From Alcaligenes faecalis (GTDB taxonomy: Bacteria > Pseudomonadota > Gammaproteobacteria > Burkholderiales > Burkholderiaceae_B): 64,000 nt of DNA. The notes beneath the pieces were generated by a model, which worked only from the letters and a program-made list of their open reading frames with translations, ran no database searches and was not told the DNA's origin. Positions within the stretch are counted from its first letter, which is position 1, and each line of letters starts with the position of its first letter. The DNA lies in assembly GCF_002443155.1 (NCBI RefSeq), contig NZ_CP023667.1:3162001-3226000 (forward strand), given 5' to 3'. Below, piece by piece: positions 32,008-44,371 of this stretch. A program made the translations under genes and the position numbers.

Positions 32008-34431
32008 TTAGAACTGATACTTCACCGCCAGCATCATGTTGCGCGGTTCGCCCCAGGTATAGGTGCTGTACCAGGAGAACATGGAGTAATAGCGCTTGTC
32101 GAACAGGTTATTGACGGTGAAGGTGGCCGACAAATTCTTGTTGAAGCGATAACGCGCCATCGCATCCACCAGCCAGTAGCCCGAGACCGTATGCTGCACC
32201 TTACCCGGCGATCCGGGGCGGCTGACGTCCCCCCAGGTCTTGCTTTGCCAACGTGCACCGCCACCCAGAGTCAGACCATTCAGATCACCCTCGAAATCGT
32301 AGGTGGTGTAGATATTGAACTGATGCTCGGGCGATAAGGTCGACACCTTTTCACCATCGCGGCGCGACAGCTTGTAGGCATAGCCTGCGTGCATCTGCCA
32401 TTGCGGTGTCAGCTGACCAGCCACTTCCAGTTCTACGCCATGCGTGCGCACACCTTGAGTCGCCTCGTAAGCGATACCACCCGATGGAGTACGACCACCT
32501 GTTTCCTTGCCAAAGTTATCCTGACGCAGCTCAAAATAAGCCAGGCTGGACGTCAAGCGGCCACCCATGAATTCACCTTTGACACCCACCTCGTAGTTAT
32601 CGCCGCGCAAGGGGTCCAGAGTACGGCCGCCCTCGTCTTGCAGGTCTTGAGGCTGGAAGATATTGGTGTAGCTGGCATAGACCGAGAAGTTGTCGTTCAG
32701 GTCGTACACGGCTCCAACGTAAGGCACCCATACGCCCGTCTCACGCATATCCATCTTGTTGTAGTTGGCGTAGCGGGTACCCAGCAGCAGCTTCAAATCG
32801 TCACGCAGGTTCAGGCGCGTACTGACGTACAAGCCATTTTCTCGTGTTACTTCACGATCATCGCCCAGATGCTGCCAGTTCATGCGCGGCCAACGGCCAT
32901 CCCAATCGTAGTAATTCGCGACATCGGTATTGCTGTTTTCACCATAAGACGCATTGGTCCAGCGACGACGCGATACGCCGCCCCCGACAACCAGCTCATG
33001 CTCGCGCCCGAACAACTCAAAGGGGCCGGTCGCATAGAAGTCCGCCGTATTGGAGACCGTCTTGCCCACGTAGCGCCCGGACCATAAGGAGGTGCCTTTG
33101 CCCGTCAAAGGATCGGGATTACCGGCAGCTACCGCCGCCAACTCGGAGTCATAACCATTGATCAGATGATTGAGCTGCACCTTGGCCATCCAGCCGCTGT
33201 CGAACTCATGCTCCAAAGTGGCAAAAGCCGAGCGGGTGTACTGATTCCAGCGACTCCAGCGCGTACCGTTATTAAAGGAGCGGTCCATATCGTTGAAGTT
33301 GCCTTGCGCGTCATAAATCGGGATGCCGCCCCAGGTCGAGCCTTTGGGGTCGTTGTCCTGCAAGTCCGCCCCCAGGGTCAGGCGGGTATCCGGTGTCAGG
33401 TCGGCTTCCACAATGCCGTACAGCACCAAAGTCTGACGCTGGTAATGGTCCAGCTGGCTTTTCTTGTCCTGATAAGCGCCGACCATACGGCCACGTATGG
33501 AGCCTGTCTCGTTCAAGGGGCCGGAGAAATCCACCTCACCACGATAGTTATCCCAGGTACCTGCGCCCGCACTGGCGTGTCCTTGAAACTCTGGCGTTGG
33601 CTTTTTACGAATCATATTGATTGTGGCGCCAGGGTTGCCACTGCCGGTCAACAGACCGGAGGCCCCTTTCAAGACTTCAACGCGGTCGTAAATTGCCATA
33701 TCGCTGAGCGTATTACCGGCGGAGTAAGGCGAATCCCGCAAGGTGGGGATACCGTCGTACTGGAAGTTCTTGATATCGAAGCCACGAGCCTCGTAGGCGG
33801 TACGTTCGCTGTCGTAAGTAATGATGCTGACGCCCGGCGTATGGCGCACCACATCATCAATACTGGTCAGATTGAAGTCGTCCATCTTCTTGCGGGTGGT
33901 CACGCTGATGGCCTGCGGTGTCTGACGTGGCGTCAGGCGCAAACGGGTTGCCGTGGCAATCGTGCCCGCCGCATACGTGCCTGAACCTTCGGTGATATCG
34001 CCCAGCGCATTACGGCGTACTTCAATACTGGCCAACGACTGCACACCAGCGTCATCAGCCAAAGCACCGCTATCGGGCACGGCAATCAAGACATAGCCCT
34101 GATCCCGGCTTTGAACCTGAAACGGCTGCCCGGCCAACAAGGCGGCAAAGCCCTCCTGCACGGAATACTGACCCTGCAAGCGCGGAGCGCGCAGGCCTTG
34201 CAATCGGGAGGAATCCATCACCAGCGCTACCCCGGCCTGTTGAGCGAACTGGCTCAAGCGGTTGGCCAGATCCCCGGCTTCCAGCGCATAGGCTTGGGTC
34301 GTCTGGGCCGAGGCCGGTGCCACATTCAGCATCAAGGCCCCCACAAAGGCCAAGCCCAGCAGGCGGCGGCAGGTATTGGGCATGAACGTCGTCTTCACAA
34401 GCGCCAAAGGCGGCGCACTCTTCGGGACCAT
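32008..34431 (-). CDS. TonB-dependent ferric-siderophore receptor with STN signalling domain
   Basis: An 807-residue outer-membrane receptor of the FpvA/FhuE class. After a signal (LLGLAFVGALMLNVAPASAQ) comes an STN domain (LEAGDLANRLSQFAQQAGVAL, GQYSVQEGFAALLAG), the part that talks to an anti-sigma factor. The plug (TPRQTPQAISVTTRKKMDDFN, DRVEVLKGASGLLTGSGNPG) and barrel follow, ending in MMLAVKYQF with a C-terminal Phe. ATG 34431 has a strong GAAGGAGA ribosome binding site. It lies 63 bases after fecR and fecI on the same strand, the standard layout for cell-surface signalling. Siderophore specificity is not readable. A hydroxamate or mixed-type siderophore is typical for the family. Confidence 0.92.
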   Translation of the reverse strand: MVPKSAPPLALVKTTFMPNTCRRLLGLAFVGALMLNVAPASAQTTQAYALEAGDLANRLSQFAQQAGVALVMDSSRLQGLRAPRLQGQYSVQEGFAALLAGQPFQVQSRDQGYVLIAVPDSGALADDAGVQSLASIEVRRNALGDITEGSGTYAAGTIATATRLRLTPRQTPQAISVTTRKKMDDFNLTSIDDVVRHTPGVSIITYDSERTAYEARGFDIKNFQYDGIPTLRDSPYSAGNTLSDMAIYDRVEVLKGASGLLTGSGNPGATINMIRKKPTPEFQGHASAGAGTWDNYRGEVDFSGPLNETGSIRGRMVGAYQDKKSQLDHYQRQTLVLYGIVEADLTPDTRLTLGADLQDNDPKGSTWGGIPIYDAQGNFNDMDRSFNNGTRWSRWNQYTRSAFATLEHEFDSGWMAKVQLNHLINGYDSELAAVAAGNPDPLTGKGTSLWSGRYVGKTVSNTADFYATGPFELFGREHELVVGGGVSRRRWTNASYGENSNTDVANYYDWDGRWPRMNWQHLGDDREVTRENGLYVSTRLNLRDDLKLLLGTRYANYNKMDMRETGVWVPYVGAVYDLNDNFSVYASYTNIFQPQDLQDEGGRTLDPLRGDNYEVGVKGEFMGGRLTSSLAYFELRQDNFGKETGGRTPSGGIAYEATQGVRTHGVELEVAGQLTPQWQMHAGYAYKLSRRDGEKVSTLSPEHQFNIYTTYDFEGDLNGLTLGGGARWQSKTWGDVSRPGSPGKVQHTVSGYWLVDAMARYRFNKNLSATFTVNNLFDKRYYSMFSWYSTYTWGEPRNMMLAVKYQF

Positions 34432-34494
34432 GAAATCTCTCCTTCTTTGGCAAGGTCTATCCGTTAAAGACGCACGAGCCCAAAAAAGCGGCAA

Positions 34495-35472
34495 TCAAGG
34501 CCTGAAATTAATCATCAATCCTTCATCTGGCGTGTTCTGCACCTGCAAGCGGGGATACAAATCTTTCAGCAAAGCCAGAGCCGACAAGGGTTTGTCAGCA
34601 GGCAAGACCGCGCTGACCGTCAGCCCCTCCATGCCTTGCGGATTGATCTGTGTTTTGCCGGAATACTGGCGGGTGATCTGCTCCAGAGCCTGTGCCAGAG
34701 GCACATGCTCCAGAAGCAGCTGTCGCTGATCCCAAGTCCGTATGACGCGGTTCACATCGGTCTGAAGATTCGCCCCGAGACCTTGCGCATTAATCTGCAC
34801 CTGATCGCCCGGCTCCAGTTCGCGAGCCGCTTCCGGACCCCGGTTGCGCGGATAAGCCAGCACCCGAGAAGACAGCACCGTCAGCAGTGTGCCTTGCGGC
34901 TGTTCCTGCACAATAAACTCAGTACCCAAGGCTTGCGAGACGGCCTCGCTGCTCAAGACCCGCAAAGGCCGATCCGGCTGCTTGGCCACCACCACTCGGA
35001 CCTGCCCTTCCAGCAGCTCAATATCCCGATACTGCTTGCTATACAAAATCTTGACTTGCGAGGCCCCGGCCAGCTCCAGGCGAGTGCCATCCTCCAGCAC
35101 CACGCTGCGCCATTCTCCGGCAGCGGTGTGTACGGACTGATGAGACCAAGGCAACACAAAGGCCAGAATCGGCAAGATAAACACCACGGCCCAGAGCAGC
35201 AGCATCATGCCCTGACGCCAATCACGCAACAGCTTGGGACGCGCCGACAATCCTGCATCCAGCGCACTGCGGCCAGGGGGGGTATTGGCTTGTACAGCCA
35301 GTTTTCTGACTCTGCCCAAGACCGCTTCCATGCCTACGGCTGCAGCTTCATGACGCGGATCCTGCGCGCGCCAGGCCATGAACTCGGCCTGAGCCTGTTC
35401 GGTGAACTGTTCGGGATCAGACAAGAGCACAACCCATTGGGCCGCCTGTCGCTCTATTTCCTCGCTGGACAT
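34495..35472 (-). CDS. FecR-type anti-sigma / signal-transfer protein
   Basis: A 325-residue inner-membrane regulator. The N-terminus (EEIERQAAQWVVLLSD, FMAWRAQDPRHEAAA) is the cytoplasmic DUF4880 sigma-binding part. One membrane span (MLLLWAVVFILPILAFVLPW) follows at about residue 90. The periplasmic FecR domain (GEWRSVVLEDGTRLELAGAS, ELEPGDQVQINAQG) and a C-terminal STN-like end complete it. ATG 35472, 5 bases after the fecI stop, is preferred to the TTG that overlaps fecI. By family precedent it relays receptor occupancy to the neighbouring sigma factor. Confidence 0.9.
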   Translation of the reverse strand: MSSEEIERQAAQWVVLLSDPEQFTEQAQAEFMAWRAQDPRHEAAAVGMEAVLGRVRKLAVQANTPPGRSALDAGLSARPKLLRDWRQGMMLLLWAVVFILPILAFVLPWSHQSVHTAAGEWRSVVLEDGTRLELAGASQVKILYSKQYRDIELLEGQVRVVVAKQPDRPLRVLSSEAVSQALGTEFIVQEQPQGTLLTVLSSRVLAYPRNRGPEAARELEPGDQVQINAQGLGANLQTDVNRVIRTWDQRQLLLEHVPLAQALEQITRQYSGKTQINPQGMEGLTVSAVLPADKPLSALALLKDLYPRLQVQNTPDEGLMINFRP

Positions 35473-35477
35473 GGGGC

Positions 35478-35990
35478 TCAAGCTGGGATCAAGGTCTGAA
35501 CATGGAGCAAGGCCTGCACCAGATCATTGCGCACGGTGCGTTCGCTGACACCCAGGCGCTTGGCCACGGTGGATTGCGTTTCCCCATCCAAATAGCAGCT
35601 CAGAAACACCATGCGAGCTCGCGCGGGCAGCTCGTCCAGAGCCTGGGCCAACAAGGCCAGCGCTTCCAGGGTTTGGGCGCACTGCTCTGCCGAGGGTGCT
35701 TGTGCCCCTTCGGCCAAGGTCGCCTCCAAGGCTTCCAGATATGCTTGCTCGACAGCCATGCGTCGGCTGCGATCAATTAACAGCCTTCTGGCCGTGGTAG
35801 CCAGAAACGCACGAGGATGACGTAAATGATGAACGGCGCAGGGGGCCAGCAGCAGACGCACAAAAGTGTCCTGAACCAGATCTTCCGCCGTAAAGCTGCA
35901 ATGCAGACGCGCGCGCAACCACCGCAACAACCAGCCACGGTGATCCTGATAGAAATCTCCCATCCCGATGGGCGTTGACGGATAGTCCAT
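35478..35990 (-). CDS. FecI-type ECF sigma factor
   Basis: A 170-residue iron-starvation ECF sigma factor. Region 2 reads FTAEDLVQDTFVRLLLAP and HPRAFLATTARRLLIDRSRR. Region 4 reads LDELPARARMVFLSCYLDGE and TVAKRLGVSERTVRNDLVQALL. ATG 35990 has an AGGG ribosome binding site, better than the GTG five codons upstream. A Fur-box-like sequence lies just upstream. The gene order fecI-fecR-receptor and that box indicate iron-repressed, siderophore-induced control of the receptor. Confidence 0.92.
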   Translation of the reverse strand: MDYPSTPIGMGDFYQDHRGWLLRWLRARLHCSFTAEDLVQDTFVRLLLAPCAVHHLRHPRAFLATTARRLLIDRSRRMAVEQAYLEALEATLAEGAQAPSAEQCAQTLEALALLAQALDELPARARMVFLSCYLDGETQSTVAKRLGVSERTVRNDLVQALLHVQTLIPA

Positions 35991-36007
35991 AGACCCTGAA
36001 CGCACTA

Positions 36008-36026
36008 ATCAATAATCATTCTCATT
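36008..36026 (-). promoter_or_regulatory. Fur box upstream of the FecI-type sigma gene
   Basis: On the minus strand AATGAGAATGATTATTGAT closely matches the Fur consensus (GATAAT-type hexamers). It ends 17 bases before the sigma-factor start, a position suited to iron-dependent repression. Confidence 0.75.
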
Positions 36027-36175
36027 CCAAAATTATGACATGAAAAGACAAGGATTCTGATGGCAAGGGCTGCAAGCGTCGTCTGGCCACGACAGATCAT
36101 CGCCGAAAAGCAGCTAATCGCCCTGCAAGGGCTGTCAAAAACAAAGGGGAAAGGCGTGCGGACTGGAAACAAGAA

Positions 36176-36205
36176 GGCGGGCATCGCTATCAAGCCATGC
36201 CCGCC
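36176..36205 (-). terminator. Terminator downstream of the small helical protein A gene
   Basis: A 9-base stem GGCGGGCAT / ATGCCCGCC is followed on the minus strand by TTCTTGTTT. A second hairpin (GCCCCG / CGGGGC, 36247-36264) lies closer to the gene. Confidence 0.65.
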
Positions 36206-36277
36206 CAACGATCCATGCACAGATCACTCCAACAACGCGAGATTAAGCCCCGAGTTTCCGGGGCATCTGCCAAACCC

Positions 36278-36595
36278 TTACATCACAAAGGAAGGCAGGG
36301 TCAGCACAGCGTGAGTGGGCTGGCAGCGGAAGCCTTCTACATCGTTCAGACGGGCTTTGGCACGACGGGACAGATGCTTGAGGACCTGGCTGCGCTCCAC
36401 GGTAGGCAGTGTGGACAGTGCATTTTCAATGGTGCGACCGGACAGGTCGTTGAGGGCGTAAGCAAACTTGCGGGCACCGTGGGTTTGCAGCAGCTCCAGC
36501 AGGTAGCCTTGGCGCTGGCGGGATGCAGCCAGGCGCAGAGCGTCTTGTAGAGCGTTGTTGTGTGGAGCGGAACGGAACAGGTTGAGGTGGAACAT
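36278..36595 (-). CDS. Small helical protein A, paralogue of the protein at 42545-42886
   Basis: A 105-residue, probably all-helical soluble protein. LLELLQTHGARKFAYALNDL then SGRTIENALSTLPTVERSQV and LKHLSRRAKARL resemble the helical repeats of the MgtE cytoplasmic N domain, but this likeness is only by eye. It is clearly related to the 113-residue protein at 42545-42886 (shared LQ.ALR.A, LL..HG...FA.AL..LS.R, LP...R.QV). The ribosome binding sites also match: both read AGGAGAAT, then 4 bases, then ATG. It stands last in the cation-transporter run, between two terminators, so it is probably its own transcript. Function unknown. Confidence 0.8.
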   Translation of the reverse strand: MFHLNLFRSAPHNNALQDALRLAASRQRQGYLLELLQTHGARKFAYALNDLSGRTIENALSTLPTVERSQVLKHLSRRAKARLNDVEGFRCQPTHAVLTLPSFVM

Positions 36596-36729
36596 AGCAT
36601 TCTCCTTCGGACACGGGGGCCCAGAAAGAGTGCTTACCTCATCAGAGGGGCCCGCTTTGTGGTCCAGCGTCCAATTGACTGGTCATTAAGGAGGCTTGCC
36701 CTTTACAGGAACAAAGCCATAAAGAAGGA

Positions 36730-36849
36730 TCAGGGTCCATTTACTTTTAAACGTGAGTAGTTAAAAAAGAAGGCGCAAGGGTTTTTGCACCAACAGTATT
36801 TTCGCATCTGTGTGTGGGCTTGTCTGCCTGGCATTGGCACACTTTCCAT
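36730..36849 (-). other. Leader block A with possible 39-residue peptide
   Basis: On the minus strand the element GATGCGAAAATACTGTTG (36791-36808) recurs almost exactly at 43271-43288, with CCAATGC 29-30 bases before it in both. The same reading frame gives related peptides in both copies: MESVPMPGRQAHTQMRKYCW here and [20 protein letters not shown] there, aligning without gaps. The A frame runs 36849 to 36730. Ribosome binding sites are poor (AGGG 2 bases from ATG). It may be a translated leader peptide or a structured RNA. I cannot tell which. Confidence 0.45.
36763..36791 (-). terminator. Rho-independent terminator inside leader block A
   Basis: On the minus strand GGTGCAA - AAACCC - TTGCGCC (one G-T pair) is followed by TTCTTTTTT. 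It lies about 190 bases after the ATPase-porin gene and 170 before small protein A. It can end the former or act as an attenuator for the latter. Confidence 0.75.
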
Positions 36850-36978
36850 CACCCTGAAGCCATCAAAAATATACTTAGGGATAAGTGATTTGCTCCCTTA
36901 TCCCCAGACACCTGCCAGCTTTGCGGACCCCCTGGCCTGATACAGGATCAGCCCAAGCGCAGGAATGCAGTGCTTTAT

Positions 36979-38694
36979 TTAGAAGTGATGCGTCACACCC
37001 AAAGCCACACGGCTGCTACGCGGTTCGCTGGCACTGGCTGCCGTTTCCATATCAAAGCGACGTCCTTGAGCCGCAAAGGCATAGACGCTGGTACGGGGCG
37101 ACAAGGCATGCACATAGCCCACAGACATCACCTGAATGCGACGTGCGCGCTCATCGGTATCCTCCCAGCTCCAGTTCGGACGACCCAGGGACCATTGCAG
37201 CTGAAACTCGCCCTTACCCACAGGAATCGCCGTACCTACATACCAGGTATCCAAACGGCCACCGTTAATGAACTCCGCCGGGCCCAAGCCTTCCAAACCC
37301 TTGTCTTCCAGATGGGCAGGGCCATCATCACCATTCAGGCCCACAAAGCCATTGCTCTGACGGCTCCAGCCTGCTGCAAGGCGGGCTACCTCGAAGTCAT
37401 AGCTGGCACCCAATTGCCAGGCCGTAGGACGATTGGATTCGACACGACTCAAGCTCTCGTAGCTGGCCCCCAGCAACCAGGCCCCCTCCTCGTAGCGCAA
37501 GGCCACGCTATAGAGTTTGCTGCGAGAGCCTCCCATGCCTTGCTCGCCCACGTCCGCGCTGTAGCTGGCTCCTAACTGCATGCCAGCCCATTGCGGGCTG
37601 CGCCAGCTGAACTGATTGGAGATCTGGTAGTTGTCCGAGGCACGCATCAGGGCGCCCATGCCAAAGTCTTTCCAGGAGCCCACTTCAATGGCAGAGACAA
37701 ATTCCTGGCCCACGGTGTACTGGCGTCCAAAACGCAATTCGCCCCAGTTGTTACTGCCCAGACCCAGCCAGGCCTGATAGTTGAACAGTCGATCGGATTC
37801 CTCGGCCCGGCCTGCAGCCAGATCAATGCCGCTTTCCAGATTGAAGGTGGCACGAAGCCCATCGCCCAAATCCTCATGGCCGCGAATCCCCCACAGGGAG
37901 TCCGTCTGCCCGCCACTTAGCAGGTCACGCTGCGAGCCTTCGCCGCTCACGCGCGTCCAGCCCAAACCGGCATCCAAAGTGCCATAGAGCTGCACCGAGG
38001 TTTCAGCATGGCTGTGGCCAGGCATCAGCGCCCCTGCCAGACCAAACAGGGCCACCCCTGCCGCTAAAGCAGCGGCTTTGCTCAATTGAAAAGGGCTGCG
38101 CTCCAGCACACGACGCCAGCCGGAAGCGACAGGAACAGACTCACGCATCAGAACGCCTAACAAGGTTTGACTACCCGTCGCCACCACCACACCGTGTGCG
38201 GTCCCGGCCACAACCCGGTCGCCCATGGCGCACGTATCGGGTGCAGCCTGCAAAATGGCGCGGTTCAGAATCAGGTGATCCTGATGGATCAAGCGCAGAT
38301 CCGCCGGCACGTAATCACCGGCAGACAACAGCACGATATCGCCAGTCACCAGCATACGAGCCGGCACGCGTGACTGGTGATCCCGCGCCAGATCGTACAT
38401 GGTCAAATCACGGCGCACCTGACAGGTTTGTTTTTTCATGGTCTGGACCACCTGGACCAGATCAGCGGGGCTGGAACGCAGCACCCGTATTTGATTGGGG
38501 CCGTTCTGTATCAGACGGCGCAAGACTTCATCAAAGGCCAGACCGTGGCGCTGGGTATTCAAGGCTTGCAACACTTGTGGCACGCTGCGGGTGGCGTAGT
38601 AGCTCAGCGCACAGTGGGCGCGGCGTACCAGACGCACCGGGCTCTGGTGTACGACGGCGCTGTGATCGGGATGGTAAAACTGGCTTGCATTCAT
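36979..38694 (-). CDS. Fusion of degenerate Mg2+-ATPase N-terminus/actuator domain with a porin
   Basis: One unbroken 571-residue frame joins two unrelated parts. Residues 20-180 resemble MgtA-type P-ATPases: RSVPQVLQALNTQRHGLAFD (cation-ATPase N domain), LVTGDIVLLSAGDYVPADLR, and VVAGTAHGVVVATGSQTLLG (actuator domain). Membrane helices M1-M2 and the TGES loop are missing, as is everything after the actuator, so it cannot pump. Residues 200-230 form a hydrophobic segment ending HSHA, then ETSVQLYGTLDAGLGW begins a gram-negative porin that ends in GVTHHF. ATG 38694 has a good GAGG ribosome binding site. An internal ATG at 38148 with a weak TTAGG site would give a normal 389-residue porin precursor. 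It lies downstream of three CorA-like genes. Confidence 0.85.
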   Translation of the reverse strand: MNASQFYHPDHSAVVHQSPVRLVRRAHCALSYYATRSVPQVLQALNTQRHGLAFDEVLRRLIQNGPNQIRVLRSSPADLVQVVQTMKKQTCQVRRDLTMYDLARDHQSRVPARMLVTGDIVLLSAGDYVPADLRLIHQDHLILNRAILQAAPDTCAMGDRVVAGTAHGVVVATGSQTLLGVLMRESVPVASGWRRVLERSPFQLSKAAALAAGVALFGLAGALMPGHSHAETSVQLYGTLDAGLGWTRVSGEGSQRDLLSGGQTDSLWGIRGHEDLGDGLRATFNLESGIDLAAGRAEESDRLFNYQAWLGLGSNNWGELRFGRQYTVGQEFVSAIEVGSWKDFGMGALMRASDNYQISNQFSWRSPQWAGMQLGASYSADVGEQGMGGSRSKLYSVALRYEEGAWLLGASYESLSRVESNRPTAWQLGASYDFEVARLAAGWSRQSNGFVGLNGDDGPAHLEDKGLEGLGPAEFINGGRLDTWYVGTAIPVGKGEFQLQWSLGRPNWSWEDTDERARRIQVMSVGYVHALSPRTSVYAFAAQGRRFDMETAASASEPRSSRVALGVTHHF

Positions 38695-38754
38695 GGGGAC
38701 CTCTACACATTGGTGCAGGGACGGCCACCCCGCTCTAAAAGGCTAAGGATGTGT

Positions 38755-38862
38755 TTACCGTCGCAGTGGAAAGACAAAAATCGCGAATTGATTCGGGTAG
38801 GAGTTGCCGCCCGCTGGCTTGCATTCAGAACCAGCGGGCACTATCTCGTGGTCATCGGCCAT
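38755..38862 (-). CDS. Possible 35-residue peptide ahead of the ATPase-porin fusion
   Basis: The frame MADDHEIVPAGSECKPAGGN... (35 residues) has a well-placed AGAGG ribosome binding site 5 bases before its ATG. It fills the gap between the CorA-like 1 stop and the fusion gene. It opens with acidic residues and contains four prolines, features shared in kind with Mg2+-sensing leader peptides such as MgtL. Its sequence is not otherwise recognisable. It may be a small protein, a leader, or chance. Confidence 0.4.
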   Translation of the reverse strand: MADDHEIVPAGSECKPAGGNSYPNQFAIFVFPLRR

Positions 38863-38942
38863 CGACACCTCTGTTTCGTTCAATGAGTTCTTCAGTAAAC
38901 AGCCTGCGTGCCGCACCAGCGGGCCGGCACACAGCGCTCCCA

Positions 38943-39845
38943 TCAACGCAATGCACCCGATTTTTTGATTGTCCAGATCGGTACTGCCGTTAACAGCAAG
39001 ACGGTGACCAACTGCACCCACATGGTGCCTTCCCAAGACAACTCGGGCATGACATGGAAGTTCTGGCCATACCAGTTGATCAGGGCTGTACCGGGCACCA
39101 GCAAGGCCCACAGCACCGTAAAGACTTTGGTCACGTTCAGATCGCTCATGGCTACGGACTCACCGGCAGCGCGCCAATGAAAACGCTGGCGTTCAATGGC
39201 GAAATGCGCACGGCGCTGCATGCCCTCAATGGCGGCAATCAGCTCGTCCACGCGACCCAGATTCATGCTTTTTTCCTGATAGACCCAACGACGCAAGCGC
39301 TGCGCAGCCTGCTCCAGATCATCAATGGAATGCATCACGTGGGACAGCGGCTTGTGCAGGGTTGCCATGTGGCTGTCCAGATCAATCATGTCCTCGGCAC
39401 CACGGGAATAGTCCGTACCTACATTGGACAGAAAGCCGCGCAAGGACAGGGTCGAGACACTCAGGCCCTGGTCCATGCGGTCCAGCACTTGCGAGGTCTG
39501 CGCCAGCAATTGATAAAGCAGGGTCAACGCCAAGGCGTGGGAGCTGGACAGGGACATTTCCTGGGCACTCAAGCGCTCCAGCGCCTGACCCGGACGCAAC
39601 AGGCGATGGCCGGTTTCCACGGTATACAGGGGCTGGTCGTCCTCGCCCAGACACCAGATCAGATCGGACACCTGCATCTGCTCGTCGTTCAGGCGCACGC
39701 AGCGTATGCGTGTCGCCATCCCGAGGCTGGCCTGGGCTTGCGGCAGCAGATCCACGCGATACAGCTTGCCCAGATCTTCCAGCGCCTGACGGTCGGGGGC
39801 CTGCAAGCGCCGCCAGGAAGCCATATCCTTGAAGCGGGCCGTCAT
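38943..39845 (-). CDS. CorA-like divalent-cation channel 1 (GQN type)
   Basis: A 300-residue member of the CorA superfamily: a large, mostly helical cytoplasmic domain and two C-terminal membrane spans. The first span ends in the pore motif YGQNFHVMPEL, where classical CorA has GMN. The second span is followed by the basic tail TIKKSGALR. The N-terminal domain is diverged (RRLQAPDRQALEDLGKLY). ATG 39845 overlaps the CorA-like 2 stop as ATGA, so the two are coupled. CorA channels are homopentamers. Tandem different subunits raise the possibility of heteromers or of different gating. Selectivity cannot be predicted from GQN. Confidence 0.85.
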   Translation of the reverse strand: MTARFKDMASWRRLQAPDRQALEDLGKLYRVDLLPQAQASLGMATRIRCVRLNDEQMQVSDLIWCLGEDDQPLYTVETGHRLLRPGQALERLSAQEMSLSSSHALALTLLYQLLAQTSQVLDRMDQGLSVSTLSLRGFLSNVGTDYSRGAEDMIDLDSHMATLHKPLSHVMHSIDDLEQAAQRLRRWVYQEKSMNLGRVDELIAAIEGMQRRAHFAIERQRFHWRAAGESVAMSDLNVTKVFTVLWALLVPGTALINWYGQNFHVMPELSWEGTMWVQLVTVLLLTAVPIWTIKKSGALR

Positions 39846-40795
39846 CGCATCCACCCTTTACGTTTCACATACGCCAGAGGAGCCAAGGCAAATACAGCGG
39901 TCATGCCCATGACTAGCCACTCACCGCCGATGATTTCCAGCTCGGGCATATTGGCAAAGTTCTGACCATAGAACGCCGCGATCAGCGTAGGCGGCAAGAA
40001 CACCGCGGTAACCACTGTAAAGACCTTGATCACCTGGTTCTGCTTCAAATCCAGCGTGGTCATCAAGGACTGCTGCAAGTTGCGGATCTTGTCGTGCTGA
40101 AAGCGGGCATAGCGACGCAAGCTTTGAATATCCGAGAGCAACATGGACAGGTTCTCTGCGCTTTCACCACCGGGAGTACGACGTAGCCAACGGCCTGCGC
40201 GAGCCAGCATCAATTGCCCTTCCACGGTTTTGGCGACCAGCTCCTCGGCCTCACCCAGACCGATAGCGGTACTGGCAATATCCGCTACCCCGGCCTGACG
40301 GCCGGAGGTATCAAAGCCGCCACTGGCTGCCGCCACCGTATCGCTGCGCTCATCCAGACGTTCGGCAATATCGGAAATCGTGGCACGAGCCTGGTCGTTC
40401 AGAGCCTGCAGGATCATGAACAGAATTGACGCGGGGCTGGGCGCAGCTTGTCCGGCCTCTGCCATGGCGTTCAACTGCTGGCTGACTCGCTCCAGCGTAT
40501 GAACCCGGACGTCCTGCTCCACGCTGATCAGGCGGTCCTTGCTCAAGGCGAACAGCAGGCTGGTTTCGCGGTATTGCTGGCCCTGGCGTATCACCATCTC
40601 CACGGGAATCAGAATAAAGCCTGCTTCTTCCGCCGCTGCTCGGCCCCGTTTGACGCTCAGATCCAGGCCCAGCTTGGCCTGTGCCGCGGCAAGCTCATCG
40701 TGACGGCTGGCCGACAACTGCAACCAGGCCGTTTTTTGCCCGCGCTTGTCGCTCAGGCTGGACACCACCGCGCCCCCCTGTTTTTTATCAGTCAT
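39842..40795 (-). CDS. CorA-like divalent-cation channel 2 (GQN type)
   Basis: A 317-residue CorA-family protein. The cytoplasmic domain includes LLFALSKDRLISVEQDVRV and a long helix LRRYARFQHDKIRNLQQSLM. The first span (VIKVFTVVTAVFLPPTLIAA) leads to FYGQNFANMPEL, then a second span and the C-terminal KRKGWMR, close to the KRK-W end of classical CorA. It has a GAGGA ribosome binding site, starts 3 bases after the single-span protein gene, and overlaps CorA-like 1. It resembles CorA-like 3 more than CorA-like 1 (shared LKQNQVIKVFTVVTAVFLP-type core). Confidence 0.87.
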   Translation of the reverse strand: MTDKKQGGAVVSSLSDKRGQKTAWLQLSASRHDELAAAQAKLGLDLSVKRGRAAAEEAGFILIPVEMVIRQGQQYRETSLLFALSKDRLISVEQDVRVHTLERVSQQLNAMAEAGQAAPSPASILFMILQALNDQARATISDIAERLDERSDTVAAASGGFDTSGRQAGVADIASTAIGLGEAEELVAKTVEGQLMLARAGRWLRRTPGGESAENLSMLLSDIQSLRRYARFQHDKIRNLQQSLMTTLDLKQNQVIKVFTVVTAVFLPPTLIAAFYGQNFANMPELEIIGGEWLVMGMTAVFALAPLAYVKRKGWMR

Positions 40796-40798
40796 GGC

Positions 40799-41098
40799 TT
40801 AGTCCTCGCTTTGTACCTGTTCGGCTTCCGGGGAAACCATGTAGTGACCATACAAATGCAGACCAGCAAAGCTGCCCAGAATCAGGATGTACAGCACCAC
40901 CACCGCAATCATGATTTCGCGCTCGATATGCGCAGTGCGTGGGCGACTGGCACGCGCCCGATCAATAGCCTGACGGCGCTGCTGGACAGCCGCGTTGGAG
41001 TCCGACTGCAAACTCAAATCTTCATTCCAGACCAGACCACGCAACTTATCCGAGCCTGCTGTTGCCATCTCGGCGCTGATTTTCTGTGTGTTCAACAT
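40799..41098 (-). CDS. Small single-span membrane protein 1
   Basis: A 99-residue protein with a hydrophilic N-terminus (about 60 residues, RRQAIDRARASRPRTAHIER near the membrane), one span (IMIAVVVLYILILGSFAGLH) and a short acidic tail ending EQVQSED. ATG 41098 has a GGAAGGA ribosome binding site. It sits between CorA-like 3 and CorA-like 2. A second protein of the same plan, though not obviously the same sequence, precedes CorA-like 3, so each coupled CorA-like gene has a membrane partner. Likely an accessory subunit. Family not recognised. Confidence 0.75.
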   Translation of the reverse strand: MLNTQKISAEMATAGSDKLRGLVWNEDLSLQSDSNAAVQQRRQAIDRARASRPRTAHIEREIMIAVVVLYILILGSFAGLHLYGHYMVSPEAEQVQSED

Positions 41099-41161
41099 AT
41101 GAAATCCTTCCCATTCATTTAATTGTCAAAGGCAGCGAGCCCAGGGCTCACCCGGCGCGCT

Positions 41162-42100
41162 CTAGCGCAGCCAGCCCCGGTGTTTCACATAGATCAGCGG
41201 CAACATGGAGAACAAGGCGGTGGAAATAATCCCCACCATTTCGGCGTGCTCCCATTGCAAAATCGGCATATAGGCAAAGTTCATGCTGTAGTAGGTCGAG
41301 ATCAGCATGGCGGGCAGGAACACGGCAGTCACTACCGAGAACACTTTCACAATCTGGTTCTGCTTCACGTTCAGCGCCATATTGTTGGTGGTCTGCAAAA
41401 GGCGGACGCGATCGTGCACAAAGTTCACCTGCTTTTCCACAGCCTCAATGTCGTCGATCAAGGTATGGAAAACGGGCTTCAGTTTTTCCTGGTCTGCGGG
41501 CAAACGCGCCAGGGCATGGCGGGCAGCCATGGCCAGCTGCAATTGGCTTTCCAGACAGTCGGACAAGAGTTCTTCCACTTCGCTCAAATCCATCTGGGTG
41601 GAGACCACATCACTGACGCCAAAGTCGCGGTCCTTGGTTTCCAGGCTGTTGAGCACGGCATTGGTCTGGGTCAGCACCTTACCCAGATCGTGGCTCAGCG
41701 CGTCCAGCAGTTCATCGGCAGCATCATTAATGGACTGCAAGATCACGGCAAAGCTTTCAAAAGCATCGTTTTCGCGGCCATCGCGCTGCAAGCGCTGCAG
41801 TGCCTGGGCCAGCGGCTTGGGGCTGGGATCAGGTTCAATGGAGACCAGGGTTTCACGACTCAGGATGAACACCACACGGCTGGCTTTCTTCAACCCCTTG
41901 TCCACGTTCAGAAACGTCACGGGCACAAAGCTGAAAGGGCCTTCCTGAGTGGGACTGTTCTGCAAGTTCTGTGGAATCTCCACGCCCAGCTTTTTACGCA
42001 GGCCACCGATCTGCTCGGTGGCATGGATACTGATGCGCATCCAGTTATTGGGCTGGCCGTCGTTGCCAAAGAGCCGCGGCGTTTTATCTTGGTCCGTCAT
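41162..42100 (-). CDS. CorA-like divalent-cation channel 3 (SMN type)
   Basis: A 312-residue CorA-family protein. SRVVFILSRETLVSIEPDPS lies in the cytoplasmic alpha/beta part. LRPADQ-type helices lead to NNMALNVKQNQIVKVFSVVT and FLPAMLISTYYSMNFAYMPIL. The pore motif is therefore SMN rather than GMN. The second span ends in KHRGWLR. Its ATG overlaps the stop of membrane protein 2 (ATGA). Of the three it is closest to classical CorA in motif layout, with YSMNF differing from YGMNF by one residue. Mg2+, Co2+, Ni2+ or Zn2+ transport are all possible. Confidence 0.87.
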   Translation of the reverse strand: MTDQDKTPRLFGNDGQPNNWMRISIHATEQIGGLRKKLGVEIPQNLQNSPTQEGPFSFVPVTFLNVDKGLKKASRVVFILSRETLVSIEPDPSPKPLAQALQRLQRDGRENDAFESFAVILQSINDAADELLDALSHDLGKVLTQTNAVLNSLETKDRDFGVSDVVSTQMDLSEVEELLSDCLESQLQLAMAARHALARLPADQEKLKPVFHTLIDDIEAVEKQVNFVHDRVRLLQTTNNMALNVKQNQIVKVFSVVTAVFLPAMLISTYYSMNFAYMPILQWEHAEMVGIISTALFSMLPLIYVKHRGWLR

Positions 42101-42435
42101 TGTTGATCTCCATCAGAACGGGGCTCTGGGGAGGTGGACGCATCAGGCGATTGCGTCGAGGTCCCCATGTAAAAGCTGGAATGCGAGCCGGAGGTGGAAC
42201 TGGTCCGGGTTTCCAGGTGCGAGTTGCTGAAAAACAGCCAGCTCACCACCACAATCAAAATGCCCCACGAAGAAAGCAGCATGGAAAAAGACAGACGTTC
42301 GTAGCGCGACCAACGCTTGCGGCCCTTAAACGGCGCGGCACTGGGGCGACGCGCCGAGCGGGTCCAGACCTGAGCGGCAAGCGAGTTGTCCTGATACGGT
42401 TTGCTGCTCAAGGAAGAGGGAATGGTTTGCGGCAT
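42097..42435 (-). CDS. Small single-span membrane protein 2
   Basis: A 112-residue protein: basic N-terminus (AAPFKGRKRWSRYERLS), one span (MLLSSWGILIVVVSWLFF), then a Ser/Thr-rich tail (TRTSSTSGSHSS...) ending in an acidic SDGDQQ. The predicted topology is N-in, tail periplasmic. It overlaps CorA-like 3 by 4 bases, so the products are made in step, implying a complex. ATG 42435 is preferred over the longer frame because the upstream stretch belongs to a structured leader. Family not recognised. Confidence 0.72.
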   Translation of the reverse strand: MPQTIPSSLSSKPYQDNSLAAQVWTRSARRPSAAPFKGRKRWSRYERLSFSMLLSSWGILIVVVSWLFFSNSHLETRTSSTSGSHSSFYMGTSTQSPDASTSPEPRSDGDQQ

Positions 42436-42459
42436 AGCACTCTTTTGGTTTGATGAAAG

Positions 42460-42512
42460 CCACAGCAGTCGTCCATGGCGATGCGATCCCCGCATGGGCC
42501 AGTCTGCTGTGG
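42460..42512 (-). promoter_or_regulatory. Long structured leader before the CorA-like operon
   Basis: Perfect 9-base arms CCACAGCAG (42460-42468) and CTGCTGTGG (42504-42512) enclose a second pair CCATG / CATGG. The 53-base element ends 24 bases before the membrane protein 2 start, in the presumed 5' leader. No T-run follows directly. It could be a regulatory RNA structure or an operator. It matches no Mg2+ riboswitch I know. Confidence 0.55.
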
Positions 42513-42544
42513 TGGGTTAAATAGAAATGGGTAGCGTTCAGTGC

Positions 42545-42886
42545 TCAAGAGCGCTGGGGCTGGCGATACTCACGCAGCCAGTCCTGCGTGCCGTAACGGT
42601 GCGGAAACAGGGTGAACAGGCTGGGCGAGGGGCCATGAGTCCGGCGGCGGCCCAGATTCCCCACCCGAACGCCAGTGTGCATGGCACTGTGAACCTGGTT
42701 GCGATCAAATTCGGGAAGCATGGCCAGAACATCGGCACGGACACGAGCCGAGAGCTTGGGCAGAGCCCGTGCAAAAGCCAGGGTGCCGTGCGAGGCCAGC
42801 AAGTCACACACGGCAGCGGGGCGGCAAGTGGCGACAGCCATGCGCAAAGCGCGCTGCAAGCTATCGTGGGGGCGGGAAAACAGCAT
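42545..42886 (-). CDS. Small helical protein B, paralogue of the protein at 36278-36595
   Basis: A 113-residue protein. Its first 75 residues match small protein A: PHDSLQRALRMAV, LLASHGTLAFARALPKLSAR, VLAMLPEFDRNQV. The C-terminal part (GRRRTHGPSPSLFTLFPHRY) differs. ATG 42886 follows CAGGAGAATCCC, the same ribosome-site layout as protein A. It precedes the membrane-protein/CorA operon by about 110 bases. The helical repeat is reminiscent of the MgtE N domain, a Mg2+ sensor module. That is a visual impression only. Confidence 0.78.
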   Translation of the reverse strand: MLFSRPHDSLQRALRMAVATCRPAAVCDLLASHGTLAFARALPKLSARVRADVLAMLPEFDRNQVHSAMHTGVRVGNLGRRRTHGPSPSLFTLFPHRYGTQDWLREYRQPQRS

Positions 42887-43564
42887 GGGATTCTCCTGGG
42901 CACACGGCCACAGAGGTACCCCACACGTCTTAGACCGTGAGGAACCTGGAGCCGGTGCTCAATTCGCAATGAGGTTTCATGCGGGCATGAAACGCTGGGC
43001 AGAACGCGGGGCTGCGTCTTTCAGATTCAGGGTCAGGGCCCAAGAACGTGCTCCTTTAACAATCAAAAAATATCGGCTGCCTGCCTGGGTGTCCTGCATG
43101 GGCATCAGCCATACACGCACTGTCTGTTTCAGGGCGACAAGGCATCTGACCTTGTCCAATCGGACTCAAGCCCCAGGCACATAAACACCTGAGGCTTGGG
43201 TCCGAGCGATAAAACAGAAAGAGCACATGGAATCTACGGATCCCTCAAGAAAACTCCCGTTCTTGAGGAACAACAGAATTTTCGCATCGCCACCCTGGCA
43301 GGGCCAGCCTGCATTGGGGCCTGATGCATGGCCTTAAACATAAGGCGAATATGCCAAGGTATATATTTGCTTCGTCCGCACGCCAATCCGGCCCGCATCC
43401 TTGGCCTGCTCTGTGCCCAGGCCAAATACCCAACCAACATGGCCAAGTCGCTGTACGGGTTTTCCTGCGGGCACCGGCCAAATGGATTATTCTTGCAGTG
43501 TTTGCCCAGCAAAAAACCAATTCTTTATCCGTCAACGAAGACGGATGCGCAACAAAGCACCACC
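42887..43564. other. Intergenic region with leader block B, between helical protein B and thiG
   Basis: A 678-base stretch with no convincing full-size gene. Leader block B (43234-43352) contains the element shared with 36791-36808 and a 31-35 codon frame ending at 43234. A 9-base stem CCTCAAGAA / TTCTTGAGG spans 43244-43269 directly after the shared element. Another imperfect hairpin lies at about 43168-43199. Toward thiG there is an 8-base stem (TTGGCCTG / CAGGCCAA, 43401-43425) and a 7-base stem (ATCCGTC / GACGGAT, 43527-43546). No TPP riboswitch or thiS gene was found ahead of thiG. Confidence 0.65.
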
Positions 43565-44371
43565 ATGACCCAAACAGTGAACAACGACCCCTTTATCCTG
43601 GCCGGAACCAGCTACCAATCCCGGCTGTTGGTAGGCACCGGTAAATACAAAGATTTTGATGAAACTCGTCTGGCTATTGAAGCCAGCGGCGCTGAAATTG
43701 TGACTGTGGCCATTCGCCGCACCAATATCGGCCAGAACGCCAACGAGCCCAATCTGCTCGATTACCTGCCCCCTTCCAAATACACCCTGCTGCCCAACAC
43801 TGCGGGTTGCTATACCGCTGACGACGCCGTGCGTACCTTGCGTCTGGCTCGCGAACTGCTGGACGGTCACAAGCTGGTCAAACTGGAAGTGCTGGGCGAC
43901 TCCGGCAATCTGTTCCCCAATATGCCCGAAACCCTGAAAGCCGCCAAAACTCTGGTGGATGAAGGCTTTGATGTCATGGTGTATTGCGCCGACGATCCTA
44001 TCCAGGCCCGCATGCTGGAAGATATTGGCTGTGTGGCCATCATGCCTTTGGCCTCGCTGATCGGTTCGGGCATGGGCATCATCAACCCCTGGAACCTGCG
44101 CCTGATCATCGATCAGAGCAAGGTGCCTGTGCTGGTGGATGCCGGTGTGGGGACGGCCTCGGATGCGGCCATTGCCATGGAACTGGGCTGTGATGGTGTC
44201 CTGATGAACACCGCCATTGCCGGTGCCCGCCAGCCTGTGATGATGGCCAGCGCCATGAATCTGGCGGTACAAGCCGGTCGCCAGGCTTATCTGGCTGGCC
44301 GCGTACCCCGCAAATACTACGATGCCGACCCCAGCTCCCCTACCGAAGGGCTGATTCACTCCCGTACCTGA
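43565..44371 (+). CDS. thiG: Thiazole synthase
   Basis: ThiG builds the thiazole phosphate of thiamine from deoxyxylulose phosphate, dehydroglycine and ThiS-bound sulfur. The 268-residue barrel has [20 protein letters not shown] with the Schiff-base lysine region, [41 protein letters not shown] and [20 protein letters not shown]. The ATG at 43565 matches the family start. The longer upstream frame does not. It is followed by thiD after 7 bases. No thiS precedes it, although the enzyme needs ThiS; that gene must lie elsewhere. Confidence 0.95.

Follow-up and report, generated by a model that had tools for sequence, protein, structure and literature searches.

Regions that precede a signal sequence are usually short and disposable. 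The ESPR of autotransporters is an unusually long example ahead of the signal core of an outer-membrane protein, at a few tens of residues and with no folded domain, whereas the gene described here places a whole enzyme-derived domain before its signal core. A further parallel is offered by RsiP, the N-terminal domain of which is cytosolic. Signal peptidase is reported to be the site-1 protease of this membrane-anchored regulator (PMC8844934), and our candidate would share with RsiP-type anti-sigma factors both the membrane anchor and the signal-peptidase cut, with the differences that in the fusion the cut is predicted and that the outer part is a porin for the outer membrane. Each half of the fusion has a described counterpart. 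The general porins of Burkholderiales (Omp32, BpsOmp38; Porin_4) have in common with it a barrel, a signal-peptide-like segment and a C-terminal Phe, but carry an ordinary short signal peptide where the fusion has about 230 residues before the mature porin. The Mg2+ pumps MgtA and MgtB (TIGR01524, PDB 8uy7) share its N-terminal and actuator (A) domain sequence, whereas the fusion is without M1-M2, TGES, the phosphorylation/nucleotide domain and the transport membrane domain, and therefore cannot be a pump. In E. coli at low Mg2+, ribosomes fall off at the acidic EPDP of mgtL, and transcription of mgtA follows (PMC11282234). A leader upstream of the fusion resembles mgtL and corL leaders in that a short ORF with RNA structure lies ahead of a Mg2+ gene and, as in mgtL, has acidic residues early on (PMC11282234, PMC11552253), but it is longer (35-46 aa) and stands before the fusion gene within or at the head of a gene cluster. 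Judged by titles and abstract starts, none of the papers listed in searches of an open-access library describes the fusion or the gene cassette beside it.

In this work we describe the fusion gene in a stretch of 64,000 nucleotides from Alcaligenes faecalis (the window), and find that a Mg2+-pump domain without its membrane and catalytic parts has been kept before a porin signal-like sequence across several genera. We consider it probable that the gene encodes one preprotein that is split by signal peptidase, and that its A domain serves Mg2+ transport. Under this proposal the first ~190 residues would form a non-catalytic N/A domain of the MgtA type in the cytosol, the adjoining hydrophobic segment would act as an internal Sec signal sequence with the N-terminus in the cytosol, and signal peptidase would cut after this segment, allowing the porin to reach the outer membrane. 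The A domain and its membrane stub would remain at, or later leave, the face of the inner membrane, in a 1:1 ratio with the porin, and may regulate Mg2+ uptake either by mimicking part of a P-type pump or by contacting neighbouring CorA-like, MgtE or MgtC proteins, with an mgtL-like leader ORF possibly tuning expression in some lineages. A more specific version, which we offer tentatively and at somewhat less than an even chance, is that the 'signal peptide' of this porin is itself a folded regulator, and that the split yields an outer-membrane pore and, anchored in the inner membrane, a Mg2+-pump derivative that serves as decoy or sensor, each pore thereby bringing one regulator of Mg2+ uptake to the cytosolic face, in some lineages under an mgtL-like leader. 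This version, if true, would couple the two sides of the envelope in a new way. With both halves functional, outer-membrane permeability would be tied by a single gene to inner-membrane Mg2+ transport at a fixed stoichiometry, and the actuator domain of a P-type ATPase would be able to act alone as a regulator.

An MgtA-type actuator domain fused in frame to a porin

The fusion gene and its parts are as follows.

36979..38694, minus strand: A-domain/porin fusion gene, 571 aa (ORF, Pfam, homologues, dN/dS)
38482..38595, minus strand: Cation_ATPase_N match, residues 34-71 (Pfam, just over the cut-off)
38140..38427, minus strand: E1-E2_ATPase actuator domain without TGES, residues 90-185 (Pfam, alignment, MgtA profile comparison, dN/dS)
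38005..38139, minus strand: linker and signal-peptide-like segment, residues 186-230, core 210-224 (hydropathy; pLDDT below 50 at 186-231)
36982..38004, minus strand: mature porin part, residues 231-571 (Porin_4, barrel model, Foldseek)

The initial annotation had read this interval as the actuator domain of a Mg2+ P-type ATPase in frame with a porin, and both the ORF and the Pfam matches agree. The frame runs from an ATG at 38694 to 36979 without an internal stop, in a genome assembled as a single contig of 4.08 Mb. Pfam places Cation_ATPase_N just over its cut-off (21.9 bits vs 20.4), E1-E2_ATPase (PF00122) well within it (43.5 vs 28.1), and Porin_4 (PF13609) at residues 220-545 (159.6 vs 27), covering profile positions 4-306 of 310. 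The assignment of residues 20-180 to the N-terminal and actuator domains of MgtA-type pumps likewise holds: with a profile built from eight fused N-terminal parts, the best solved relative is E. coli MgtA (8uy7, E 5e-20), which aligns clearly over its residues 138-212 and 239-276, the match to MgtA 49-87 being worth 3 bits only. Residues 88-137 and 213-238 of MgtA have no counterpart; we take these gaps to be the M1-M2 hairpin and the TGES loop, respectively, in keeping with the earlier statement that M1-M2, TGES and all catalytic parts are missing. TGES is absent at its expected place in all 12 fused proteins, most of which read Q-xxPD-x-CAMGD, while the A-domain motifs that flank this site are kept in all 12. 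Invariant positions, in an alignment of eight N-terminal parts read from DNA and two typed ones, include G118, D119, G126, P130-D132, R134-L135, M157-G158, V161, G164, A166 and T173-G174. Models of full-length pumps are matched over short stretches far below their cut-offs, NF011702 at residues 81-149 (69 bits vs 975) and TIGR01524, the Mg2+-transporting P-type ATPase family, at residues 83-149 (48.9 vs 610.75); a phosphorylation site and transport membrane helices are absent, the protein being porin from residue 220 on. What remains would thus be an A domain minus its catalytic loop and membrane hairpin, which, lacking counterparts of both, should be soluble and non-catalytic.

An AlphaFold2 model of the full-length protein (23 sequences) has a mean pLDDT of 78.8 and a pTM of 0.56, with the A domain at 79-94 in blocks of ten and the barrel mostly at 80-92, dipping to 56. 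Values fall below 50 at residues 1-20, at 186-231 and in two short loops, such that the joint between the two halves is modelled as disordered. Foldseek relates the barrel to BpsOmp38 (8wv0, E 3.8e-22) and also to Omp32, and the matches shown for the full-length model are porins. A model of the N-terminal part alone is poor (pLDDT 52.4, 8 sequences); its first Foldseek match is MgtA, at E 1.2e-6, TM 0.37 and rmsd 12.

Elsewhere, one of the fused genomes (G202:C29:14906-15268) contains a 177-aa frame whose match to the Mg2+ ATPase family is confined to positions 31-157, and which is either another shortened P-type ATPase or an effect of the contig.

Distribution and selection

The fusion recurs in relatives, a check proposed with the initial annotation. 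The 62 listed homologues, drawn from the 7997 candidates with the most words in common, comprise 12 full-length fusions (44-97% identity to the window protein), 31 porins alone and 19 P-type ATPases alone. Among 46 DNA loci from named genomes, eight (L009-L016) match across both A domain and porin: L009-L011 are from Alcaligenes, whose species are the closest relatives with a name, L012 from Bordetella trematum, L013 from Paenalcaligenes suwonensis, L014 and L016 from Alcaligenaceae (L014 with the genus handle of L013), and L015 from Advenella, on a contig that carries the label plasmid. Among the 38 remaining loci, L026 is truncated by the end of its contig. The family-level search found the fusion in 10 of 268 genomes, the window's own included, with no stop in any of them, the next match (E 3.7e-9) lying inside an 851-aa frame. 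Within the window's genus, five of 10 genomes carry the fusion; in G054 the porin stands alone, and the other four lack any close copy of it. Across 399 genomes of the order no further fusion was found at E 1e-15, matches in eight other genomes being frames of 892-945 aa; at most the best 8 candidates per genome were scored in this search, so misses are possible. Plasmid records gave 171 matches to the whole query and 77 to the N-terminal part, none covering 80%.

Occurrence in many contigs and genomes rules out a one-off deletion or an assembly artefact. That separate mgtA and porin genes in relatives might point to such an event was in part well founded, since MgtA is found in eight of the 10 fused genomes and unfused porins occur in Comamonas (L017) and Alcaligenes (G054), but the event was not a one-off. 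The possibility of a stop or frameshift in relatives likewise applies at most to P0171, a 229-aa relative with an unrelated tail after the A domain, which may reflect a frame break at that point. Porin-only relatives show that the porin does not require the A domain. On a tree of the porin part (55 rows), the fused label needs five changes, four of them forced by well-supported branches, and fused forms on both sides of the midpoint root suggest that an old fusion was lost repeatedly or that the A domain has moved. The true number of changes may be lower, since P0032, scored as unfused, is listed as a 385-aa porin while the DNA of apparently the same contig (L016, equal in length at 470249) carries the full fusion, which also illustrates that annotation can hide the fusion. 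A relic N-terminal tail in the unfused porin of G054 was considered and rejected: the protein starts are similar, but blastn aligns the porin part only.

Pairwise dN/dS was calculated by the Nei-Gojobori method, taking the A domain as residues 25-185. Six Alcaligenes pairs (dS 0.15-0.90) gave 0.06-0.11 for the A domain and 0.03-0.08 for the porin, and the pair L013-L014 gave 0.026 (dS 1.5) and 0.015, respectively. Higher values were obtained for Advenella-CGII (0.29 and 0.19 at dS 0.20), and for the window gene against B. trematum (0.35 and 0.18) and against L013 (0.17 and 0.15), both at dS >1.2; the window-Advenella pair is saturated. The linker and signal segment are looser, at 0.07-0.27 in the Alcaligenes pairs and L013-L014, and the N-terminal tail is also among the faster-evolving parts. 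The A domain is under purifying selection at the protein level, somewhat weaker than that on the porin; the dN/dS comparison that had been suggested for the ATPase part thus bears out, most directly in the six Alcaligenes pairs, the earlier argument for selection from the open frame.

These values also bear on the view that the protein is an ordinary porin whose N-terminal part is left from an old fusion and has no present function. Porin-only forms in close relatives, the four to five changes of label on the porin tree and the possibly broken P0171 would fit such a neutral relic. Nonetheless we regard it as very improbable, being largely contradicted by dN/dS of 0.03-0.11 over 160 codons at substantial synonymous divergence, by the lack of stops in 10 of 10 fused genomes, and by the disappearance of TGES from every fused protein while the flanking motifs were all kept.

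Synonymous constraint at the 5' end was strong only in L013-L014, where none of 15 fourfold sites, those in the first 30 alignment codons, had changed, compared with 134 of 235 elsewhere (Fisher 6e-6). It was weak in window-L009 (p 0.02) and window-L011 (p 0.06), and none was seen in window-L010 or L009-L010.

A signal-like segment and the site of translation start

The initial annotation had placed the porin signal peptide where TM3 of the ATPase would lie, and the segment fits this description. In the window protein the hydrophobic core is followed by PGHSHA|ETSVQLYG, the cut at 230/231 (SHA|E) having been placed by eye. Across the nine fusions read from DNA, a 15-residue core of modest hydrophobicity (Kyte-Doolittle 1.8-2.2) ends 9-13 residues before the first strand motif of the porin, with Ala or Gly at the expected cut and a net-positive flank (2-4 positive vs 0-2 negative charges in the 20 residues before the core). 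Windows upstream are less hydrophobic than the core, except in B. trematum (1.84 vs 1.81), and are nearly equal in L013 (1.75 vs 1.77). Among the listed proteins, P0003 and P0008 have a neutral flank with no net positive charge, and the hydropathy scan of P0014 picked an earlier segment. The combination of hydrophobic core, positive flank and Ala/Gly at the cut is consistent with an N-in signal sequence processed by signal peptidase, and suggests putative export of the porin part to the outer membrane.

One alternative is that a single frame has two starts, with a long form that keeps the A domain, perhaps uncleaved or degraded, while translation of most porin would begin near codon 183 and provide a 48-aa signal peptide of the ordinary kind. 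The internal ATG at 38148 to which the initial annotation had drawn attention does exist (residue 183), and eight of the nine fused genes read from DNA have an in-frame ATG at residues 180-187. From this start the first strand motif would fall at residue 54, within the range of 25-70 seen in unfused porins, and in L011 the ATG is preceded by AGGAG. No SD-like match of at least 4 bases precedes the other seven ATGs, the window's included, however; L010 has TTG at this place, and Met is missing there from three more fused proteins, P0009, P0011 and P0012, whose source name is Kerstersia. Selection on the A domain would also go unexplained unless the long form were made too. We consider internal initiation unlikely, and the sequence favours one long chain from the first ATG, in line with the other option raised initially, a long extension ahead of the signal. 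At this proposed start, TAGAGGTnCCC-ATG is common to Alcaligenes loci that differ in their upstream DNA (L010, G057), while in B. trematum it is preceded by AGAGAG only, with no clear SD.

Another alternative is that the A domain is an export brake or chaperone, a long stretch in the cytosol that would retain or free the signal sequence and so make export follow cytosolic conditions, with no other target. The position of the A domain directly before the signal-like segment, its 1:1 linkage to the porin and its strong constraint are all compatible with this role. Nearby unfused porins do without the A domain, however, and a brake leaves unexplained both the retention of a Mg2+-pump domain in particular and the Mg2+ gene context. 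We judge this role improbable, less likely than internal initiation, and continue to prefer a split preprotein whose A domain acts on Mg2+ transport.

Genomic context

In the window, the fusion lies downstream of a cassette that includes three CorA-like genes.

38943..39854, minus strand: CorA-like gene 3, GQN in place of GMN (Pfam, motif reading)
39842..40795, minus strand: CorA-like gene 2, GQN (Pfam, motif reading)
40799..41098, minus strand: 99-aa small protein, hydrophobic stretch by eye, kept in the cassette (locus comparison)
41162..42100, minus strand: CorA-like gene 1, SMN (Pfam, motif reading)
42097..42495, minus strand: 132-aa protein, hydrophobic stretch by eye, kept in the cassette (locus comparison)
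42545..42886, minus strand: 113-aa protein heading the cassette, adjoining the fusion in G057 (locus comparison)

In L009, L011 and B. trematum (L012) the fusion is likewise the last gene, after three CorA-like genes and proteins of the 99-aa and 132-aa types. In Comamonas L017 this cassette accompanies a porin that is not fused. The CorA-like proteins pass the Pfam CorA cut-off, lack GMN and score below the TIGR00383 cut-off (92.5, 119.3 and 27.8 bits vs 200.75). SMN is found in 103 of 105 relatives of CorA-like protein 1 (P0063-P0167), with no motif read in two and P0168 left out of the 106 listed; for CorA-like genes 2 and 3, the motif in the window, L012 and L017 is GQN. The three tandem genes (38943-42100) possibly encode a hetero-oligomeric CorA variant. 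In Advenella L015, the fusion is followed instead by genes for MgtE with CBS domains and for MgtC, and L016 has ORFs with the same sizes and starts as this mgtE and mgtC. The context therefore points to magnesium, through either three CorA-like genes or mgtE-mgtC nearby, neither of which is universal.

No single partner is obligatory. Strong CorA-like matches occur in only five of the 10 fused genomes, and the cassette is not beside the fusion in G057, L013, L015 or L016; MgtA over the cut-off is present in eight of the 10 and absent from two. Nor are A domain and cassette always lost together: both are missing in G054, where the porin is unfused, only the cassette is missing in G057, where the 113-aa gene immediately precedes the fusion, and Comamonas L017 has the cassette only.

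Several neighbouring genes deserve mention. The 113-aa protein is related to a 105-aa protein (36278-36595, minus strand), the two flanking cassette and fusion; kinship of this pair with MgtE_N (FliG-like) is not claimed, as hhalign gave a probability of 58% over 31 columns and neither exceeded the Pfam cut-off. A 131-aa protein precedes the leader in L015 (6515-6910) and L137 (1110-1505, reverse-complemented). In L015 this protein matches the C-terminal domain of MgtC/SapB below threshold (E 0.016), and it is possibly a second case of part of a Mg2+ protein occurring by itself. FecI/FecR-type sigma and regulator genes, beside a gene that we take to be TonB-receptor-like, lie downstream of the fusion at 32008-36005 (minus strand).

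A leader ORF with a conserved hairpin

Between CorA-like gene 3 and the fusion lie two further features.

38755..38862, minus strand: leader ORF, 35 aa, acidic start MADDHEIV..., SD-like GAGG upstream (upstream comparison, ORF scans)
38809..38839, minus strand: conserved 10-bp hairpin in the leader ORF (alignment, folding, shuffles)

The window leader reads MADDHEIVPAGSECKPAGGNSYPNQFAIFVFPLRR; that of B. trematum starts MEEDSEIAPAG... and those of Advenella and CGII-64 start MDEDGNEM.LAG.... A leader is present in five of 10 fused loci and absent from L010, L011, G057, L013 and L014, although L011 and G057 retain part of its 3' end. A scan of 12 loci on both strands for an SD and at least 4 acidic residues at positions 2-9 recovered the leaders of L012, L015 and L016 and no other ORF; a looser scan (three acidic residues, no SD) over the minus strand of 36950-43400 returned the 35-aa leader as its single ORF. 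The locus of the window genome's own mgtA yielded no acidic leader (at least 3 acidic residues).

The hairpin is common to all five leaders, with 50 of 50 cells paired and two pairs changed on both sides. This covariation rests on five related sequences with mixed shuffle controls, its score being reached in 5 of 500 shuffles, the count of double-changed pairs in 257 and the count of pair types in all 500. The folding energy of the leader stands out in L012, L015 and L016 (z -3.1 to -3.9), whereas that of the window leader is unremarkable (z -0.8). A known Mg2+ riboswitch was rejected: Rfam, searched over 36000-44000 with E values up to 1, produced a single match at chance level.

An RNA covariance model built from the five leaders (R1) matched 22 places in 19 of the 268 family genomes searched at E<=0.01, one of them in the window genome. 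Six are true elements, namely the five leaders used to build the model and a new one in G128, and two others are the opposite strands of such elements (G051, G202). Of the remaining 14, a second place in G092 was left out and no leader was found in the 13 inspected, eight of which fall in one recurring coding sequence, presumably enoyl-CoA-hydratase-like. The G128 element, with only two acidic residues at positions 2-9, stands directly before mgtE (E 2e-9). In G128 the leader is present together with roughly 20 initial bases of the fused gene; mgtE, from about its 70th base, comes 43 bases further on, and the region matches Advenella DNA on either side of the missing A-domain/porin block. By analogy with mgtL, expression of the fusion may be under Mg2+ control via the leader.

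The sequence GAATGCAAGCCAG is present twice on the minus strand, in the leader ORF (38814-38826) and at the fusion start (38680-38692), and the stretch between is absent in L010, so a small duplication or deletion is possible. In L013 and L014, the 250 bases upstream of the fusion hold a different leader, with inverted repeats noted by eye (GCCAGAC/GTCTGGC and GCGAAAATAC/GTATTTTCGC).
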